A stretch of 64,000 nucleotides of DNA from Actinobacteria bacterium IMCC26256 (lineage in GTDB: Bacteria > Actinomycetota > Acidimicrobiia > IMCC26256). Positions 5,939-63,238 of the stretch are shown piece after piece; position 1 is the stretch's first letter, and every line of letters begins with the position of its first letter. Location: the NCBI GenBank assembly GCA_001023575.1, contig CP011489.1:1549001-1613000 (forward strand), given 5' to 3'. The position numbers were made by a program, and so were the translations under genes. The notes below the pieces were generated by a model. That model did not search any database. It had not been told where the DNA came from and saw nothing but the letters and a program-made list of their open reading frames with translations.

Positions 5939-7466
5939 TCTCAGAGGGCAGGTAACTCTTCTTGAGCCTCCAGAGGGTTCGAATAGCGAACCCAGCACAG
6001 AGAAGCACCCCGAGCCCAAGAACTCCGCGGCCCCCAACTGCTCCAGGGGTGCGGGCAGCAGTCTCAGCGATTCGCTCAATGGTTTGGAGAGCAAGCGAGG
6101 TTGGGGTCTGTAGCACGCGTGATGCCCCCGGAACAAGTAAGGCTCCGAGCGCTCCAGCGACTAGCCCCCATATTGTGACTGGGACAACTAGCGGGGCGGC
6201 AAGAAGATTCGCTGGTAGCGCCACTAAAGGAATACTCCCAAAGACAGGGAGCAATACCGGGGCCACCCCTATTTGAGCTGCAGCGGTCACTGCAAGGGAG
6301 TCTCGAATAGGGCGCGGACCGGGCATTATGCGTGATAGCGGAGCGGCGAACAATGCGATCCCCGCTGTCGCACCAGCGGATAAGAGAAACCCGACGGAGT
6401 GGAGAAGCATCGGGTCGAGCAGCAGCAGAGCGATCGCCGCTATACAGAGCACGCGCACTCCCCCGATAGGTCTCCCAAGTGTCTCACCCGCGAGAACAAT
6501 CACCGCCATCATGATTGCGCGCAGAACTGACGGTTCCCAGCGCGTCGCTGCTCCAAAAATGACTAATGCAAAAGCGCCGATCAATAGTCGCGACGCTATA
6601 GGTGCTCTGCGCAACAGCGGCCTTACGAGTGCAAGCACCGCAGCGACATTGGCGCCACTCACAACGAGCAGATGACTCATACCGGCTGCTCGAAATGTAT
6701 CGAGCGTCTCTTTTGGGATTGCTCTCTTATCCCCAAGGAGAAATCCAGCAAGAACTCCGCGCTCGCGCGCTGGCATCCCCGCACCTCCCCTCGCGACTAT
6801 TGCGCGTACCCAATTCGCAGTTGAGAGCAGCGGGGAGTGCCCTCTTGCGAGATCCGTGAGGCGAGCATCATCGAGTTGAGCAGCCACATGTCTCCACCTC
6901 CACCGTTTGTCATACCCGTCAAGGGGAGACAAGTGGCCGCTAAGCGCCACGCGGTCACCTGCATCTAGAGACCGGAGGCGCACTGCATCATCGGCGCTAG
7001 CACGAACCAATACTGATCGATTGCCTGTATTTATAGGCGTGACGCGAAAGTGCGCTCCAAATTCACTCGAGGTCACAGCGTCATCAACTTGGCGCTCTGG
7101 GTTCTCAAGCCAGCCCTCAGCCCTCACGACCACTTGCGTCGAGAAGAGAGAGACATCAGGGTCACCTACTACCGCTCCGACCAAGGTTCCTGATGACCGG
7201 TTCCGAACTGGTTCGGATAGCGGTGAGAACTCAATGCCGTTCATGGATCTTGCTGTTAGAGCAAACGAGAGCGCTATGAACGCGACTACGGCGATCGGCA
7301 TGTGGAGCCACCTTGGGGAGATAAGCACTCCGAGAACGAGGCAGCCCGTGGCGATTATTGCCCCTACTCCATTGCTTGGGCTAGAGGTCCCAAGGAATAC
7401 TCCAATAACTACCGCTCCAAGAATTACGAATGGACCGAGAGGGATTCTCCGCTCGGCACCTTTCAC
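5919..7466 (-). CDS. comEC: ComEC/Rec2 DNA-uptake channel, short form
   Basis: A 515-aa polytopic membrane protein of the ComEC/Rec2 family, which carries single-stranded DNA through the inner membrane during transformation. Hydrophobic segments occupy residues 10-70, a DUF4131/OB-like soluble region follows (about 80-205), and the competence domain contains HLLVVSGANV (265-274) and the WEPSVLRAIMMA helix. Many ComEC proteins have a C-terminal metallo-beta-lactamase-like nuclease domain of about 250 aa; this one ends after the membrane domain, so that activity would have to be supplied elsewhere. The start is GTG at 7466, overlapping the comEA stop by 4 nt (GTGA). Confidence 0.93.
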   Translation of the reverse strand: MKGAERRIPLGPFVILGAVVIGVFLGTSSPSNGVGAIIATGCLVLGVLISPRWLHMPIAVVAFIALSFALTARSMNGIEFSPLSEPVRNRSSGTLVGAVVGDPDVSLFSTQVVVRAEGWLENPERQVDDAVTSSEFGAHFRVTPINTGNRSVLVRASADDAVRLRSLDAGDRVALSGHLSPLDGYDKRWRWRHVAAQLDDARLTDLARGHSPLLSTANWVRAIVARGGAGMPARERGVLAGFLLGDKRAIPKETLDTFRAAGMSHLLVVSGANVAAVLALVRPLLRRAPIASRLLIGAFALVIFGAATRWEPSVLRAIMMAVIVLAGETLGRPIGGVRVLCIAAIALLLLDPMLLHSVGFLLSAGATAGIALFAAPLSRIMPGPRPIRDSLAVTAAAQIGVAPVLLPVFGSIPLVALPANLLAAPLVVPVTIWGLVAGALGALLVPGASRVLQTPTSLALQTIERIAETAARTPGAVGGRGVLGLGVLLCAGFAIRTLWRLKKSYLPSENVLGSR

Positions 7467-11527: not shown

Positions 11528-11586
11528 GTTCCGGGGCTCGTTCCCGGGCTAGTTCCCTGACTCGTTCGGGGATCGTTCCGGGGCTG
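11528..11586 (+). repeat. Five degenerate 12-nt tandem repeats running into tRNA-Ala
   Basis: The units are GTTCCGGGGCTC, GTTCCCGGGCTA, GTTCCCTGACTC, GTTCGGGGATC (11 nt) and GTTCCGGGGCTG. The last unit includes the first seven bases of the tRNA, so the array looks as if it grew by slippage or duplication from the tRNA 5' end. A comparable 12-nt array precedes tRNA-Gly at 54427-54486. Confidence 0.75.
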
Positions 11587-11652
11587 TAGCTCAGTTGGCA
11601 GAGCGCTTCCATGGCATGGAAGAGGTCAGGGGTTCAATTCCCCTCAGCTCCA
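11580..11652 (+). tRNA. tRNA-Ala (anticodon GGC)
   Basis: A complete 73-nt cloverleaf. The acceptor GGGGCTG pairs with CAGCTCC and includes the G3-U70 wobble that identifies alanine tRNAs. The anticodon stem CTTCC/GGAAG encloses loop ATGGCAT with anticodon GGC. The T-arm is AGGGG-TTCAATT-CCCCT and the discriminator is A. CCA is not encoded. Its 3' 40 nt are repeated at 12594 and 14797, so it serves as the left attachment site of an accessory array; the gene itself is intact. Confidence 0.96.
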
Positions 11653-11676
11653 CAAACCATTCTCGGTTCGCTCCTG
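11611..11676 (+). repeat. Repeat copy A (attL-like): tRNA-Ala 3' half plus downstream arm
   Basis: The tRNA 3' part from 11613 (anticodon GGC) to 11658 (46 nt) recurs perfectly at 12594-12639; after one mismatch the identity continues 17 more nt, to 11676. Copy C at 14795-14837 shares only the tRNA part (43 nt, from 11611). Copies A and B thus share an arm of about 24 nt beyond the tRNA that C lacks, as expected if A and B are left ends of related inserted units and C is the chromosomal junction. Confidence 0.9.
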
Positions 11677-11717
11677 CTCACGGCAGGTTTTTCGGCCCTT
11701 GGGTCCGTAAGTGCATT

Positions 11718-11766
11718 TACCGCAGGAAGTTTGGCCGGTACCGCAGAGGAAGACCTATTTGGCCGG
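11718..11766 (+). repeat. Adjacent direct repeats inside the left end of unit 1
   Basis: TACCGCAGGAAG...TTTGGCCGG (11718-11738) is followed directly by TACCGCAGAGGAAG...TTTGGCCGG (11739-11766). The two differ by a short insertion. They lie 66-114 nt from the tRNA end and might be arm-type binding sites for a recombinase, or simply a local duplication. Confidence 0.6.
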
Positions 11767-11896
11767 CGCCCATGATCAAACCTCCTTCCTCGTGATAGCT
11801 CAGATGGCGTCCGTTTAGCCCGCCGCGGCTGTGGCCCTGAGGACATCCATCAACTCCGCCCGTACAGATTCTTTCGCCTGCATTCGTCCGCATGCC

Positions 11897-11927
11897 TTGA
11901 CCTCAAACGAGTTTGCTGTCATACCAT
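11897..11927 (+). promoter_or_regulatory. Promoter of the methyltransferase gene
   Basis: TTGACC (11897-11902) and TACCAT (11922-11927) are separated by 19 nt, and TACCAT is 6 nt before GTG at 11934. This predicts a leaderless mRNA starting at the GTG, and it decides the start codon over the TTG at 11913. The unit therefore brings its own promoter. Confidence 0.55.
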
Positions 11928-11933
11928 CTTGTT

Positions 11934-12530
11934 GTGGACATCTTGAATCGAATACTGCCGTGGGACGGTTGGGGCGGACGCATCATGGCGACGGTGATGG
12001 CAAGTGGCAACGCGGACATGGAGTTAGCGGCGGTCGAGCTGGTGGACCCGAGACCTGACAGCAATGTTGCGATGATCGGTTGCGGACCCGGCGTCGGTGT
12101 GGTTGCAGGCGCGCGTCGCGCGCCTAACGGCATGGTGATTGGTCTCGACCCATCGGCGGTGATGGTCGAGCGAACCCGCACGCGGTGTCGCCGGGAGCGA
12201 GTCGAGCACCTCACGAGGGTTGAACGCGCTGCGGCAGAGTCGCTCCCATTGCCAGATCGTTCGCAAGATGCCGTCGTCAGCGTCAACAACATCCAACTCT
12301 GGAGCGACCGGTCAATAGGTCTTGATGAATGTGTTCGCGTCCTCGCTCCCGGAGGCGTATTGGTAGTGCTCTTGCACACGTGGGCCATGCCGGACGACGT
12401 GCCCTATGCAGAGTGGGTCGCAGAGCTCCGTACTGACCTATCGGCCCGCGACGTGCAGGTCGAGCCCCCGCAGACCCAACGCTTTCGATCTGGTCCTGCC
12501 ATGGTGCTCATCGGCAGGTCGGCGAGGTAA
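11934..12530 (+). CDS. Class I SAM-dependent methyltransferase (cargo of unit 1)
   Basis: About 198 aa from the GTG at 11934 (frame open from 11913). Motif I is VAMIGCGPGVGVV, followed by VIGLDPSAVMVERTR, the acidic post-I region, then AESLPLPDRSQDAVVSVNNIQLW and LAPGGVLVV: the order of a Methyltransf_11/UbiE-like Rossmann domain. It should transfer a methyl group from S-adenosylmethionine; the acceptor cannot be told. The N-terminal WDGWGGRIMA precedes the fold. It is the only gene in a 981-bp unit bounded by tRNA-Ala 3' repeats and reads in the tRNA direction. The region looks richer in G+C than the flanking chromosome (by eye), in keeping with transfer. Confidence 0.85.
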   Translation: MDILNRILPWDGWGGRIMATVMASGNADMELAAVELVDPRPDSNVAMIGCGPGVGVVAGARRAPNGMVIGLDPSAVMVERTRTRCRRERVEHLTRVERAAAESLPLPDRSQDAVVSVNNIQLWSDRSIGLDECVRVLAPGGVLVVLLHTWAMPDDVPYAEWVAELRTDLSARDVQVEPPQTQRFRSGPAMVLIGRSAR

Positions 12531-12593
12531 TTCCAGCCCTTGATTGCCCCGGGTCGATGGATTCACCGCCCTGTGAACGGGACTGGGTTTTAG

Positions 12594-12657
12594 GGCATGG
12601 AAGAGGTCAGGGGTTCAATTCCCCTCAGCTCCACAAACCGTTCTCGGTTCGCTCCTG
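12594..12657 (+). repeat. Repeat copy B: tRNA-Ala 3' half plus arm
   Basis: Identical to copy A over 46 nt, then one mismatch (A to G), then 17 identical nt. It contains the T-arm and acceptor 3' strand but no 5' half, so it cannot be a functional tRNA. It is both the right end of unit 1 and the left end of unit 2. Confidence 0.92.
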
Positions 12658-14836
12658 TGGTTCTACCTTATCCAGAGGCGATGTAGGTTTCGCGCCGCTC
12701 GCAATGGGGAACAAAAGGGGTCTAGGCGATGAACGGAAATGGGAAAGACACGTCGAAGGGCATGATCACCCGACGTCAGGTACTTAAGGGTGTCGGCGCA
12801 GCCGGAGTCGCTGCCGCAGCGGTCTCCGCTGGCGTGACTCCCACCGGTGCAACTGAGTCCGATAGTCCGGTGGCGTCGCAGGCATTTGTCCCCCGAGGTG
12901 CGCTTACGAGCCAGCCCAACTTCCTCGTCATCATCGTTGACGAACAGCGTCTCGCTCCCGTCTACGAGTCTGCGTCGCTCGCATCATGGCGCTCCGCCAA
13001 TCTTCATGCGCAGAACCAGTTGAGGGCCAACGGTCTCGAGTTCCGGAATCACCACATCATGTCCAGCGCCTGTGCCCCGAGCCGCACCTCTTTCATCACG
13101 GGTCAGTACCCATCACTGCACGGCGTGACCCAGACCTCGGGTATGGCGAAGTCTTCGCTTGAGCAGGATCTGTATTGGCTCGACCCCACCACAGTGCCGA
13201 CCATGGGCGACTGGTTCCGCGCTGGCGGTTACGACACATACTGGAAGGGCAAGTGGCACGTCTCCGACGCCGACCTCTACGACTCAGGTACGCATAAGCC
13301 CTACGCGTCGTTCACCTCCGACAGTAAGCGTGATCCGGAGGCGGAGGCGGTCTACCTCGACGCCGACATGCTCGACAACTTCGGCTTCACTGGTTGGATT
13401 GGCCCCGAACCACACGGCTCCAACCCGATGCAGTCGGGCTCTTCGGCAGCTGGAGGGGCAGGTGGGCGCGACACGATGTTCGCAGGCCAGGGCGTCGAGT
13501 TGATGGAGACACTGCGCAGTTCGTCGCGCCCCTGGCTCGCTGTGACTTCATTCGTGAATCCTCACGACATCTCACTCTGGGGCGAACTCGCGCTGTTGAT
13601 GGGGCGCCTCAGTCCGTCCACGGCCCTCTACCTGCAGGGACAGTTGTCGGGTTCGAGTGTGCCCACCGATCTATTCGACCGAGCGAAGTGGGCGAAGACC
13701 TTTAATGAGGACCTGTCTTCGAAACCCTCGGCGCAGGCGAGTTATCGAGAGACCTACCCGAAGGCGTTGCAGCCGATCATTAATAACTCCGACTACCTTC
13801 GGTTCTACTACCAGCTGCAGCAGACAGTCGACGCGCAGATCAAGACGGTTATTGATGCGCTCACAGCTAACGACTCCACATATCGCGACACGGTGGTCAT
13901 CTATTTATCAGACCACGGCGATCTCCTGGGTTCGCACGGGGGCATGCACCAAAAGTGGCACAACGCCTACGACGAGGTCGTAAAGGTGCCGATGGTCTTT
14001 CACAATCCTGATCTGTTCCCGACCGCGTCCTCTACCGATGTGCTCACTAGCCACGCCGATCTTCTTCCGACAATGTTGGGTCTCGCTGGGCTTGATCAGG
14101 CCACGCTGATCGCAGATCTATCGACCACACATTCGCAGACGTTCCCGTTGCCGGGGCGCGACCTCTCCGACTTCCTGCTCGGCCTCAAAGCCGAGTCGAC
14201 CGTAGCCAATGACCCGCAGTACTTCATGACCGACGATGAGCCCACACGCGGGGTACAGCAGGTCGGCTGGAATCAGCAGATGTACACCTCGGTTGTTCAG
14301 CCTTGTCATCTCGAGACAGTCGTCGCCAACCTGGCCACAGGGCCTTCGGGGACAATGGAGCGCTGGAAGTACACGCGCTACTTCGACAACTCGCAGTTCT
14401 GGAGCTCGCCGGGCTCGCGCGATGTGGTGACCATCGTCAGCGGAAACACTCAATTAGCCGGAGCACGCAAGAACGCCGTGACGACGGTGAAGACCACTGC
14501 ACTCCCCGACCAACTCGAGATCTACAACACCTCGCTCGATCCGCTGGAGCTGAAGAACATCGCTGCCGACCGACGGCTCATGGCAACAGCGCGGGTCTCG
14601 GGAATCGTTGCGCAACTGCAGAGCCTGTTGGCCCAGGAACGCTCGGCCAAGCGGCTGAGCCCGACCACCGCCTCGTCATCGAGCGTCTCTAACGGATCTG
14701 GCCTCTTCCGCTTCATCGACGATCCAAGGCTGGTCCCCGGATACAAGTAGCCGGCGATAGATACATTCGCAGCTCTGCGCAGGAGCCGCGTGAAATGGCA
14801 TGGAAGAGGTCAGGGGTTCAATTCCCCTCAGCTCCA
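12634..14836 (+). mobile_element. tRNA-Ala cargo unit 2 (2203 bp, sulfatase)
   Basis: It runs from the end of repeat B to the end of repeat C. It carries one gene, a Tat-exported sulfatase, in the same orientation as unit 1 and the tRNA, and no recombinase. Its first ~24 nt match the first ~24 nt of unit 1 except for one base, which suggests that both units belong to one element family. Mobility is inferred, not shown. Confidence 0.7.
12729..14750 (+). CDS. Tat-exported formylglycine-dependent sulfatase (cargo of unit 2)
   Basis: A 673-aa alkaline-phosphatase-superfamily sulfatase. It opens with a twin-arginine signal (TRRQVLKG, residues 14-21, then an Ala-rich hydrophobic stretch), so it should be exported folded. 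The CAPSR motif (115-119) is the CxPxR site whose Cys is converted to formylglycine; SDHGD near 394-398 and GKWHVS supply other active-site residues. It would cleave a sulfate ester, possibly on a polysaccharide or sulfolipid; the substrate is unknown. An AAAGGGG-like ribosome-binding site precedes the ATG. The formylglycine-generating enzyme is not in the window. It is alone between two tRNA-Ala 3' repeats. Confidence 0.92.
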   Translation: MNGNGKDTSKGMITRRQVLKGVGAAGVAAAAVSAGVTPTGATESDSPVASQAFVPRGALTSQPNFLVIIVDEQRLAPVYESASLASWRSANLHAQNQLRANGLEFRNHHIMSSACAPSRTSFITGQYPSLHGVTQTSGMAKSSLEQDLYWLDPTTVPTMGDWFRAGGYDTYWKGKWHVSDADLYDSGTHKPYASFTSDSKRDPEAEAVYLDADMLDNFGFTGWIGPEPHGSNPMQSGSSAAGGAGGRDTMFAGQGVELMETLRSSSRPWLAVTSFVNPHDISLWGELALLMGRLSPSTALYLQGQLSGSSVPTDLFDRAKWAKTFNEDLSSKPSAQASYRETYPKALQPIINNSDYLRFYYQLQQTVDAQIKTVIDALTANDSTYRDTVVIYLSDHGDLLGSHGGMHQKWHNAYDEVVKVPMVFHNPDLFPTASSTDVLTSHADLLPTMLGLAGLDQATLIADLSTTHSQTFPLPGRDLSDFLLGLKAESTVANDPQYFMTDDEPTRGVQQVGWNQQMYTSVVQPCHLETVVANLATGPSGTMERWKYTRYFDNSQFWSSPGSRDVVTIVSGNTQLAGARKNAVTTVKTTALPDQLEIYNTSLDPLELKNIAADRRLMATARVSGIVAQLQSLLAQERSAKRLSPTTASSSSVSNGSGLFRFIDDPRLVPGYK

Positions 14837-14837
14837 C
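14795..14837 (+). repeat. Repeat copy C (attR-like): tRNA-Ala 3' half
   Basis: 43 nt identical to positions 11611-11653, from the anticodon loop through the discriminator. The sequence beyond it differs from the arms of copies A and B, as expected of the original chromosomal flank at the right end of the array. Confidence 0.92.
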
Positions 14838-14852
14838 CGCGCGTTCTCCCCA

Positions 14853-16079
14853 CTACCCCGTTTTCTTTAGATCCGGTGGTGCTCTCCAATCCCACCTGGT
14901 CTCCTTCGCCACACCGATCTCGCCCTCGCTGGCTTCGATCTTGATGAGTCGGTATCCATCGTGCGTTTTTTGAAGGTGGTGTCGTTTGCAGAGGCGCACG
15001 AGGTTCTCAAGAGATGCAGGGCCACCCTCAGCGAACGGAACGATGTGATCTATCTCTAGACCCATTGTCATATCGCATGTTGGTACCTGACAGACACGAT
15101 CGCGCTCCTCAACCGCTGTTCGCAGTTTTGCGGGTATTGCTCGACCCATATGCGCAATCGTCCTGATCTCTGTGCCGTCCATTACCAAGAGTTTTAAGAA
15201 TGCTTCACCTAAATACTCAGTAGCGGTAGCGACAGGTATTGGCCCAACGCCAGCAATCTCGCAGATTTCGCCATGCTCAGTGCGCCCACGCTTGAGGGCA
15301 TCTATATCGACATGAATATTGATCACTGCGTTAGGGCGAGACGTCTTCGTTACGCTCGCCCCTGCGGCGGAATCAGAGGCACTCGCTTTCGCACAGAGCA
15401 ACATCAGTGCATCAGCTGCGTAGGCCTCTGGTCTCTCATGCGCACCACTCTTGCGAGCTTGTTTGAAGATCTCATCCTGTAGTGGTTTGAGTGCTGCCAT
15501 TACGCGCGCACCGTTAGCAACCGTCATACGACCTTTAACATTGAACGAGCCATCAAGGTCTGTCCACGATTTGAAGTAGCGACTCTTGTGCACCTGTCTG
15601 TGGCGCTCCGCCTCATCAGTGGCGGCTGCGACTACGCGTGATGACGCATCTCGTAGATCGCGCACCGTCGCATGTTTTGCGAGGTTCAAGAGCTGCGTCT
15701 CAGTATTCGGCGCAACAATCACACCGCGTGCTACCTCTACAGCCTGAGCACCAGAGAGAGTGCCTGAACGCAGAGCAGCCTGAGTGACCGGAAGGTGCTG
15801 TAACTGATTAGCGAGCACCACTACTGATTGCGCTTCGTAACGAGCACAATCAGTTTCAGTAGCTAGCCACTCTGAAATACTCTTCGCTCCCTGGCCTTTC
15901 CAGCCATTCGTGCGCTCTACCTGCCCAACACCGATAGTGCGGATCGCATCCCCGAGACGCCGGACGCGCTCACCGGAGCTCACCAACCTCGCAGCCCGGG
16001 CAGCATCGAAGCACTCAACCTCCATTGAGGCAAAGCAGGCCTCGAGCTCTGTGGTGAGTTGATCCAGTCGGTCGAACAT
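14853..16079 (-). CDS. 13E12/DUF222-type HNH endonuclease
   Basis: About 408 aa from the ATG at 16079 (frame open to 16109). The N-terminal ~300 residues match the helical DUF222 layout, starting MFDRLDQLTTELEACFASME. The C-terminal HNH domain contains CQVPTCDMTMGLEIDHI, then ENLVRLCKRHH, giving the metal-binding Cys and His residues and the DHI core. Such genes are common and repetitive in actinobacteria, with uncertain function in DNA cleavage or mobility. The start is chosen because TATAGT lies 7 nt upstream of this ATG and a perfect LexA-type palindrome covers it, giving leaderless SOS-controlled expression. It lies just outside the right end of the tRNA-Ala array and might be part of an older insertion. 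Confidence 0.88.
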   Translation of the reverse strand: MFDRLDQLTTELEACFASMEVECFDAARAARLVSSGERVRRLGDAIRTIGVGQVERTNGWKGQGAKSISEWLATETDCARYEAQSVVVLANQLQHLPVTQAALRSGTLSGAQAVEVARGVIVAPNTETQLLNLAKHATVRDLRDASSRVVAAATDEAERHRQVHKSRYFKSWTDLDGSFNVKGRMTVANGARVMAALKPLQDEIFKQARKSGAHERPEAYAADALMLLCAKASASDSAAGASVTKTSRPNAVINIHVDIDALKRGRTEHGEICEIAGVGPIPVATATEYLGEAFLKLLVMDGTEIRTIAHMGRAIPAKLRTAVEERDRVCQVPTCDMTMGLEIDHIVPFAEGGPASLENLVRLCKRHHLQKTHDGYRLIKIEASEGEIGVAKETRWDWRAPPDLKKTG

Positions 16080-16092
16080 ATGTTCGACTATA
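16071..16092 (-). promoter_or_regulatory. LexA/SOS box overlapping the HNH gene start and -10
   Basis: GTCGAACATATGTTCGAC (16071-16088) is a perfect 18-nt palindrome containing GAAC-N4-GTTC, the core of the gram-positive/actinobacterial LexA operator. It contains the ATG of the HNH gene (16079-16077) and overlaps the -10 TATAGT (16092-16087). A bound repressor would block polymerase directly. Confidence 0.72.
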
Positions 16093-16181
16093 AAACAGGG
16101 GTGTGACAATTACTGCTGCGGGTCAAGACGCAGCGGGTTCGCTACTCGCCCTCTCCCTAAGACCTCATTCACCAGCGCGGT

Positions 16182-18401
<2,220 letters not shown>

Positions 18402-54492: not shown

Positions 54493-54566
54493 GCGGATGT
54501 AGCTCAATGGTAGAGCCCCAGCCTTCCAAGCTGGCCATGCCAGTTCGATCCTGGTCATCCGCTCCA
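54493..54566 (+). tRNA. tRNA-Gly (anticodon TCC) with encoded CCA
   Basis: GCGGATG pairs with CATCCGC; anticodon stem CCAGC/GCTGG encloses CTTCCAA with anticodon TCC; the T-arm contains GTTCGATCC. The discriminator T is followed by a genomic CCA (54564-54566), unlike the other two tRNAs here. Its 3' half and 21 nt beyond are repeated exactly at 63171, marking it as an integration target. Confidence 0.96.
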
Positions 54567-63170: not shown

Positions 63171-63238
63171 AGCCTTCCAAGCTGGCCATGCCAGTTCGAT
63201 CCTGGTCATCCGCTCCACGCATCACCGCAGGCCAGAGG
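63171..63238 (+). repeat. 68-nt repeat, copy 2 (tRNA-Gly 3' half plus arm)
   Basis: Identical to 54520-54587. It lacks a tRNA 5' half, so it is not a functional gene. Because it includes the 21-nt arm beyond the CCA, it is probably the start of a further unit, not the chromosomal right end, which should lack the arm (compare copy C at tRNA-Ala). Confidence 0.93.

Follow-up and report, generated by a model that had tools for sequence, protein, structure and literature searches.

A tandem array of integrase-free single-gene units at tRNA-Ala(GGC) in a freshwater actinobacterium, probably accreted from tRNA-targeting integrative elements

In Ca. Actinomarinales, gene cassettes are located at tRNA genes in the flexible genomic island (fGI) fGI1 and are exchanged between lineages (PMC7771536), and in Ca. 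Methylopumilus the additive fGI-2 at tRNA-Lys(ctt) displays recurring tRNA-end repeats, with sizes from 330 bp (1 coding sequence) to 42 kb (PMC10872708). Cis-mobilizable elements (CIMEs) and their tandem accretion are defined in a review of integrative and mobilizable elements (IMEs; PMC5704250), while tycheposons are cargo elements of 4-200 kb bordered by a tRNA gene (PMC10872708, PMC11389934). The present analysis concerns a 64,000-nucleotide stretch, referred to here as the window, of Actinobacteria bacterium IMCC26256 (contig CP011489.1, positions 1,549,001 to 1,613,000), in which the tRNA-Ala(GGC) gene is followed by two tandem units of one gene each. This array quite probably consists of accreted remnants of tRNA-targeting integrative elements, similar to CIMEs and to the cassettes of additive flexible islands. 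Its anatomy is of a kind already known, similar cassettes having been published for Actinomarinales and Methylophilaceae; new here are a closed genome in which several tRNA genes are occupied, empty sites, a series of stages in integrase loss and the mapped transfer edge of a unit that has no integrase.

Both genes of the array, a methyltransferase in unit 1 and a sulfatase in unit 2, lie in the orientation of the tRNA, and each unit is closed by an exact repeat of the 3' half of the tRNA, starting at the anticodon (Table 1). An integrase, or a recognisable remnant of one, was sought in both units and none was found, so that a preliminary description of two recombinase-free single-gene units in tandem was confirmed by ARAGORN, by the repeats and by the integrase search. 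Past the tRNA, copies A and B continue into the same 23 nt, AAACC[A/G]TTCTCGGTTCGCTCCTG, with one mismatch, and copy C into the unrelated sequence CGCGCGTTC... That description had given exact 40-nt copies ending at 14836 and an arm of about 24 nt belonging to A and B and not to C; the exactness of the repeats and the distribution of the arm were retained, with repeat lengths corrected to 41-43 nt, the end of copy C to 14837 and the arm to 23 nt. The hairpin behind the tRNA was probably brought in by unit 1. Exact repeats of 41-43 nt are far beyond chance, and a genome-wide search for the tRNA-Ala(GGC) 3' repeat returned no copies besides the three in the array. A dispersed repeat family unrelated to tRNA-Ala, which had been named as a finding that would overturn the initial interpretation, is therefore ruled out, as is an assembly artefact, since the same array is present in an independent metagenome-assembled genome (MAG).

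Table 1. Features of the tRNA-Ala(GGC) array, its distal flank and other tRNA islands of the genome. Positions are those of the window unless a locus (L) or genome position is given; the repeat-to-repeat period is the start-to-start spacing of the tRNA-Ala(GGC) 3'-half copies.
Feature	Position	Strand	Remarks
tRNA-Ala(GGC), intact, attachment gene	11580..11653	+	ARAGORN; copy A is its repeated 3' half, 11611/11613-11653
Arm past tRNA, 23 nt	11654..11676	+	common to copy B with one mismatch
Unit 1, recombinase-free	11654..12593	+	repeat-to-repeat period 981 bp
Terminator-like hairpin and T-run (CCTGC..GCAGG TTTTT) 3' of tRNA-Ala	11673..11687	+	weak; scan no better than chance
S-adenosylmethionine (SAM)-dependent methyltransferase, 205 aa	11913..12530	+	start codon uncertain; Methyltransf_11, 4e-18
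Copy B, tRNA-Ala 3' 41 nt	12594..12634	+	exact repeat of 11613-11653; arm to 12657
Unit 2, recombinase-free	12635..14796	+	repeat-to-repeat period 2203 bp
Sulfatase, predicted to be exported by the twin-arginine translocation (Tat) pathway, 673 aa	12729..14750	+	PF00884, 8e-39
Copy C, tRNA-Ala 3' 43 nt	14795..14837	+	exact repeat of 11611-11653; distal array end
DUF222-HNH (13E12-repeat-like) gene	14853..16109	-	first of distal flank; ~92% identical in G001
tRNA-Gly(TCC)	54493..54566	+	second integrase-free tRNA island in window
tRNA-Gly(TCC) copy	63171..63217	+	exact 47 nt of positions 28-74, ~20 nt common arm; closes 8.65-kb island
tRNA-Ala(CGC) island	L070:664-7663 (genome 312.7-319.7 kb)		46-nt copy, 1.36-kb one-gene unit
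tRNA-Met island	L082		45-nt copy, 2.5-kb unit
tRNA-Met island	L073:723-2976		45-nt copy, 95.6%; DUF2142 membrane protein, 131-aa integrase stump
tRNA-Arg(CCT) island	L058 / genome 584670-613199		28.5 kb to 46-nt copy; full tyrosine integrase inside

Compared with the described systems, the array resembles CIMEs in its retained attachment sites (attL and attR), every unit having a tRNA 3'-half copy on either side, in the stacking at one attachment site and in the absence of integration and transfer genes, each unit holding one gene only. It differs from them in that the array has no functional integrative and conjugative element (ICE) or IME as a neighbour and contains no remnant, and in the size of its single-gene units, 1-2 kb; mobilisation in cis by an accreted functional element, as in CIMEs, finds no counterpart, no integrase-bearing element having been found beside the array in this genome (G000) or in the related MAG (G001). 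As in additive islands, a tRNA gene is the target and a direct repeat of a tRNA fragment stands at the cassette end. The Methylopumilus islands likewise show recurring tRNA-end repeats and sizes down to one coding sequence, but their repeats are of 20 nt and their phylum is different, whereas those described here measure 41-47 nt, starting in the anticodon arm and reaching the 3' end. With fGI1 of Actinomarinales, another aquatic group of Actinobacteria, the locus shares cassettes at tRNA genes (PMC7771536); there, however, the cassettes are concentrated in one envelope-polysaccharide island, whereas here single-gene units are spread over several tRNAs, empty sites are seen and the edge of a recent transfer is mapped. 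A likeness to integron cassettes or tycheposons had been proposed at the outset; that to integrons is a functional one only. Like tycheposons, the units are bordered by a tRNA gene and carry cargo, but they are below the 4 kb minimum and lack a tyrosine recombinase, which is a defining feature of those elements; like integron cassettes and clusters of attC sites lacking an integron integrase (CALIN; PMC11389934), they are single genes arranged head-to-tail between recombination sites with no integrase in the array, but the sites are tRNA 3' halves instead of attC and no integron integrase is tied to the array. Of phage satellite features (packaging or replication genes, helper signals) none was found, the units holding single enzyme genes only.

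The relatives used for comparison, G001 to G003, are fragmented drafts of 72-79% completeness. G001 (array contig WLHA01000028.1, Actinomycetota isolate UFOp-RE-4nov15-119) carries the two-unit array at tRNA-Ala(GGC), with one substitution in copy B and one base missing in copy C; the whole tRNA gene is identical in G001 and G002, and its 3' 40 nt in G003. G000 and G001 diverge by ~8-11% and their housekeeping neighbours differ as those of separate species would (leuS 94.0% and the DUF222 gene 91.7% identical; mean mismatch 10.9% over 95 kb). The sulfatase gene, on the other hand, is 99.9% identical, and 1,939 bases in a row (12753-14691) are the same in both genomes, the next longest such run in the 95 kb being 318. 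Because of this near-identity in a diverged background, the sulfatase unit is concluded to have crossed between the two species recently, after their divergence, when it was already integrase-free. Differences resume at 14842, five nt past copy C, and the DUF222-HNH gene lies outside the exchanged tract since it is only ~92% identical; one recombination point of the exchange can thus be placed at the outermost tRNA copy. The units had been described as minimal and non-autonomous, which agrees with the lack of a recombinase in either and with an integrase-free exchange whose right edge is at copy C.

The left end of the low-divergence tract is situated at ~12023, inside the methyltransferase gene, with 7 differences over 729 bp to 12752 and 2 over the following 2,085. 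A left edge within that gene together with a right edge at copy C is the expected outcome of RecA-type homologous recombination after DNA uptake, with no site-specific enzyme, and such an origin of the recent exchange has about an even chance; it would concern this later step only and is compatible with accretion of integrative elements. A 41-nt repeat is nevertheless a short target for a crossover, the right flank offering hundreds of bp of homology, and the higher divergence of the left tract is a hint of more than one event. The asymmetry of the edges fits homologous recombination into a recipient with unit 1 only, with crossovers in unit 1 and in the 41-nt repeat; site-specific insertion followed by gene conversion might also account for it.

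The tRNA genes of G000 (2.46 Mb, single contig; 44 tRNA genes scanned) were each compared with their own surroundings, over ~10 kb downstream for most, a range that under-counts longer islands; a scan with the 44 concatenated tRNAs missed known copies, and the counts rest on the per-tRNA comparisons. Partial 3' copies of the own tRNA were found downstream on the same strand at 7 of the 44 genes. Besides Ala(GGC), four islands bear copies of 45-47 nt and no intact integrase, one of them keeping an integrase stump, and shorter decayed copies are found at tRNA-Ala(TGC) and tRNA-Gly(CCC). In the tRNA-Gly(TCC) island of the window, where no integrase was found, the cargo comprises a 1023-aa pentapeptide-repeat/HAD protein, a DprA-like protein, a NucS-like nuclease and Calx-beta proteins. 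The tRNA-Ala(CGC) locus, with two further, decayed 17-nt tails at 6816 and 7647 of L070 and a PIN-type toxin-antitoxin-like pair in its last segment, is probably an older and longer array. At L073 the integrase stump adjoins tRNA-Met and the repeat continues beyond the tRNA and takes in a terminator-like hairpin, while the tRNA-Arg(CCT) island also holds ATPase-, HNH- and macro-domain-like genes. The long repeats start at tRNA positions 28-34, in the anticodon arm, and reach or pass the tRNA 3' end, and repeats of this extent are the expected product of tyrosine integrases using tRNA genes. All 17 partial copies observed in three genomes are on the strand of the tRNA, both strands having been allowed.

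Comparison with the relatives shows that such units are inserted precisely. In G001, tRNA-Ala(CGC) and the tRNA-Met of L082 run directly into the sequence that is distal to the copy in G000; consequently, the 1.36-kb and 2.5-kb units are precise insertions. At the tRNA-Met of L073, G003 joins both flanks of the G000 island with no insert. At tRNA-Ala(GGC) itself, G002 has a single tRNA copy with different downstream genes and neither cargo unit, and G003 has other content on a contig that ends inside the repeat; both cargo genes are absent from these two drafts. Island content therefore differs among close relatives at the same tRNA, as in additive flexible islands. Site-specific recombination that placed one element after another at the tRNA 3' end, as first proposed, is thus supported by the same architecture at other tRNAs and by two clean empty sites, the empty sites looked for in related genomes having been found at Ala(CGC) and one tRNA-Met in G001 and not at Ala(GGC). 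The same two genes in all close relatives, with repeats diverging as ordinary sequence, would have spoken against it; G001 shows this in part, but the transfer signal and the absence of both genes from G002 and G003 weigh more.

G000 encodes five PF00589 genes, none in the array, of which three are non-Xer tyrosine integrases located elsewhere; the tyrosine recombinase anticipated in the genome thus exists, but no resident integrase could be matched to tRNA-Ala(GGC). G001 holds an integrase fragment at the same tRNA-Met as the L073 stump. Three tRNA genes with such copies are present in each of G020 (same order) and G059 (same class; 38 tRNA genes scanned), and in G059 a 5.2-kb tRNA-Met island contains a full integrase and a 2.6-kb tRNA-Cys island a truncated one. 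In the three islands of G020 and the remaining ones, no integrase was detected by BLAST against the G000 recombinases and, in part, by Pfam. Because intact, truncated and absent integrases coexist in the class, loss from autonomous elements is favoured over cassettes that never had an integrase, this series being a snapshot and not a proven ancestry of the tRNA-Ala units.

These observations also bear on whether the units could be true non-autonomous cassettes that never needed an integrase of their own, a tyrosine integrase of the host or of a visiting element routinely excising and inserting them in trans, with the tRNA 3' end acting as an integron-like capture platform. Five tRNA genes with integrase-free or stump units in one small genome, the exchange of units while integrase-free, the 23 nt common to arms A and B, as under one integrase, and the three non-Xer integrases elsewhere in G000 would suit this explanation, which is nonetheless considered unlikely. 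A single trans integrase serving all islands is improbable since the occupied tRNAs have crossover regions of different sequence, so that several would be needed; none of those in the genome is assignable to tRNA-Ala(GGC), the stumps in sister islands point to loss, and no repeat marks the left end of the exchanged tract. An origin by integrase loss is simpler, given the stumps at tRNA-Met in G000 and tRNA-Cys in G059 and the intact integrase in G059.

Under accretion of integrative elements, elements of the tyrosine-integrase type would have inserted twice in succession, by site-specific recombination, behind tRNA-Ala(GGC), each rebuilding the tRNA with an element-borne 3' half and displacing the prior one outward, where it stays as a direct repeat. 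The elements would then have lost their integrases and shrunk to a single cargo gene flanked by copies of the attachment site. At least the sulfatase unit moved on in this state between the two species, so that the tRNA copies still act as recombination points. That integrases made these insertions, the order of the events and the enzyme of the later exchange (RecA-type or an integrase in trans) are what we infer; the repeats and their start in the anticodon arm, the empty sites of sister units, the recent transfer between species and the integrase series of the class are shown. Several points weigh against this scenario: the two units themselves hold no integrase remnant, no integrase-bearing element using tRNA-Ala(GGC) was found, an unoccupied version of this exact site was sought in the G001-G003 drafts and none was seen, and on its left side the exchanged tract does not begin at copy B, which pure site-specific insertion would not give.

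The cargo genes are both rare among relatives. The sulfatase, with the classical active-site motif CxPSR read from the sequence as CAPSR behind a twin-arginine signal, RRQVLKG, occurs within the order (58 genomes) in G000 and G001 only, the next match being at 43%, and has relatives at 52-74% in other aquatic Actinomycetota. Among 47 sulfatase loci scanned, several are situated right at a tRNA 3' end but have no repeat, and besides G001 a single one, in an old tRNA-Met island, has a tRNA-repeat flank, a decayed 77% copy. At L183, L184, L185, L190, L191, L193 and L170 the distance to the tRNA 3' end is ~300 nt or less; the tRNAs concerned are Pro, Ser, Arg and Cys, in several lineages and with no recognisable repeats. 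Of 395 genomes of the class, only 6 were found to have the methyltransferase. A homologue 87% identical (85.9% at the DNA level; L260:9769-10913) occurs in G239, which belongs to a different family of this class; a gap of 161 nt separates it from the transfer-messenger RNA (tmRNA) gene that precedes it, whose 3' tail matches that of tRNA-Ala at 23 of 25 bases; a partial tRNA-Ala copy before this homologue was ruled out, the match being the tmRNA 3' end. Both cargo genes thus seem to tend toward tRNA-like 3' ends in unrelated backgrounds, a suggestive pattern drawn from uncontrolled comparisons. Carriage by phages or plasmids was rejected, since viral contigs contained no copy of the attachment-site (att) 30-mer and no relatives of either cargo gene, and phage records (for the sulfatase) and plasmid records (for the methyltransferase) gave remote family matches only.

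Distal to the array, the DUF222-HNH gene raises another explanation, in which such genes would act as homing-endonuclease-like cutters near tRNA 3' ends and cargo would be captured by repair. One of these genes follows the outermost Ala(GGC) copy, one is found just past the decayed Ala(CGC) copies, one ~1.4 kb past the Gly(TCC) copy and another downstream of tRNA-Tyr. The excess is mild, however, with 4 of 21 within 2 kb of a tRNA end against ~0.8 expected from chance density; a precise duplication from anticodon arm to 3' end is not predicted, and the gene beside the array is outside the exchanged tract. This mechanism is therefore judged very improbable. The family (13E12-like) has at least 20 copies in G000, 15 in G001 and none in G002. 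A katG-like catalase-peroxidase gene at 16182-18395 of the window is present in G003; G001 lacks it at the corresponding position and has the hisH region directly after the DUF222 gene.

A wider reading, held as a rather doubtful possibility, is that the 3' ends of several tRNA genes and of the tmRNA in these Actinomycetota would form a distributed capture platform for integrase-free one-gene cassettes circulating between species, in which the tRNA copies would be the only mobility signal and the enzyme would be provided in trans or by general recombination. Little is known of how this group of freshwater bacteria acquires genes, and the locus offers a sequence-level example of genes travelling between species in units that lack an integrase and are bordered by pieces of a tRNA. 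The several occupied tRNAs in one closed genome, with empty sites in relatives, make it testable whether relics of this kind are still mobile and which enzyme moves them.

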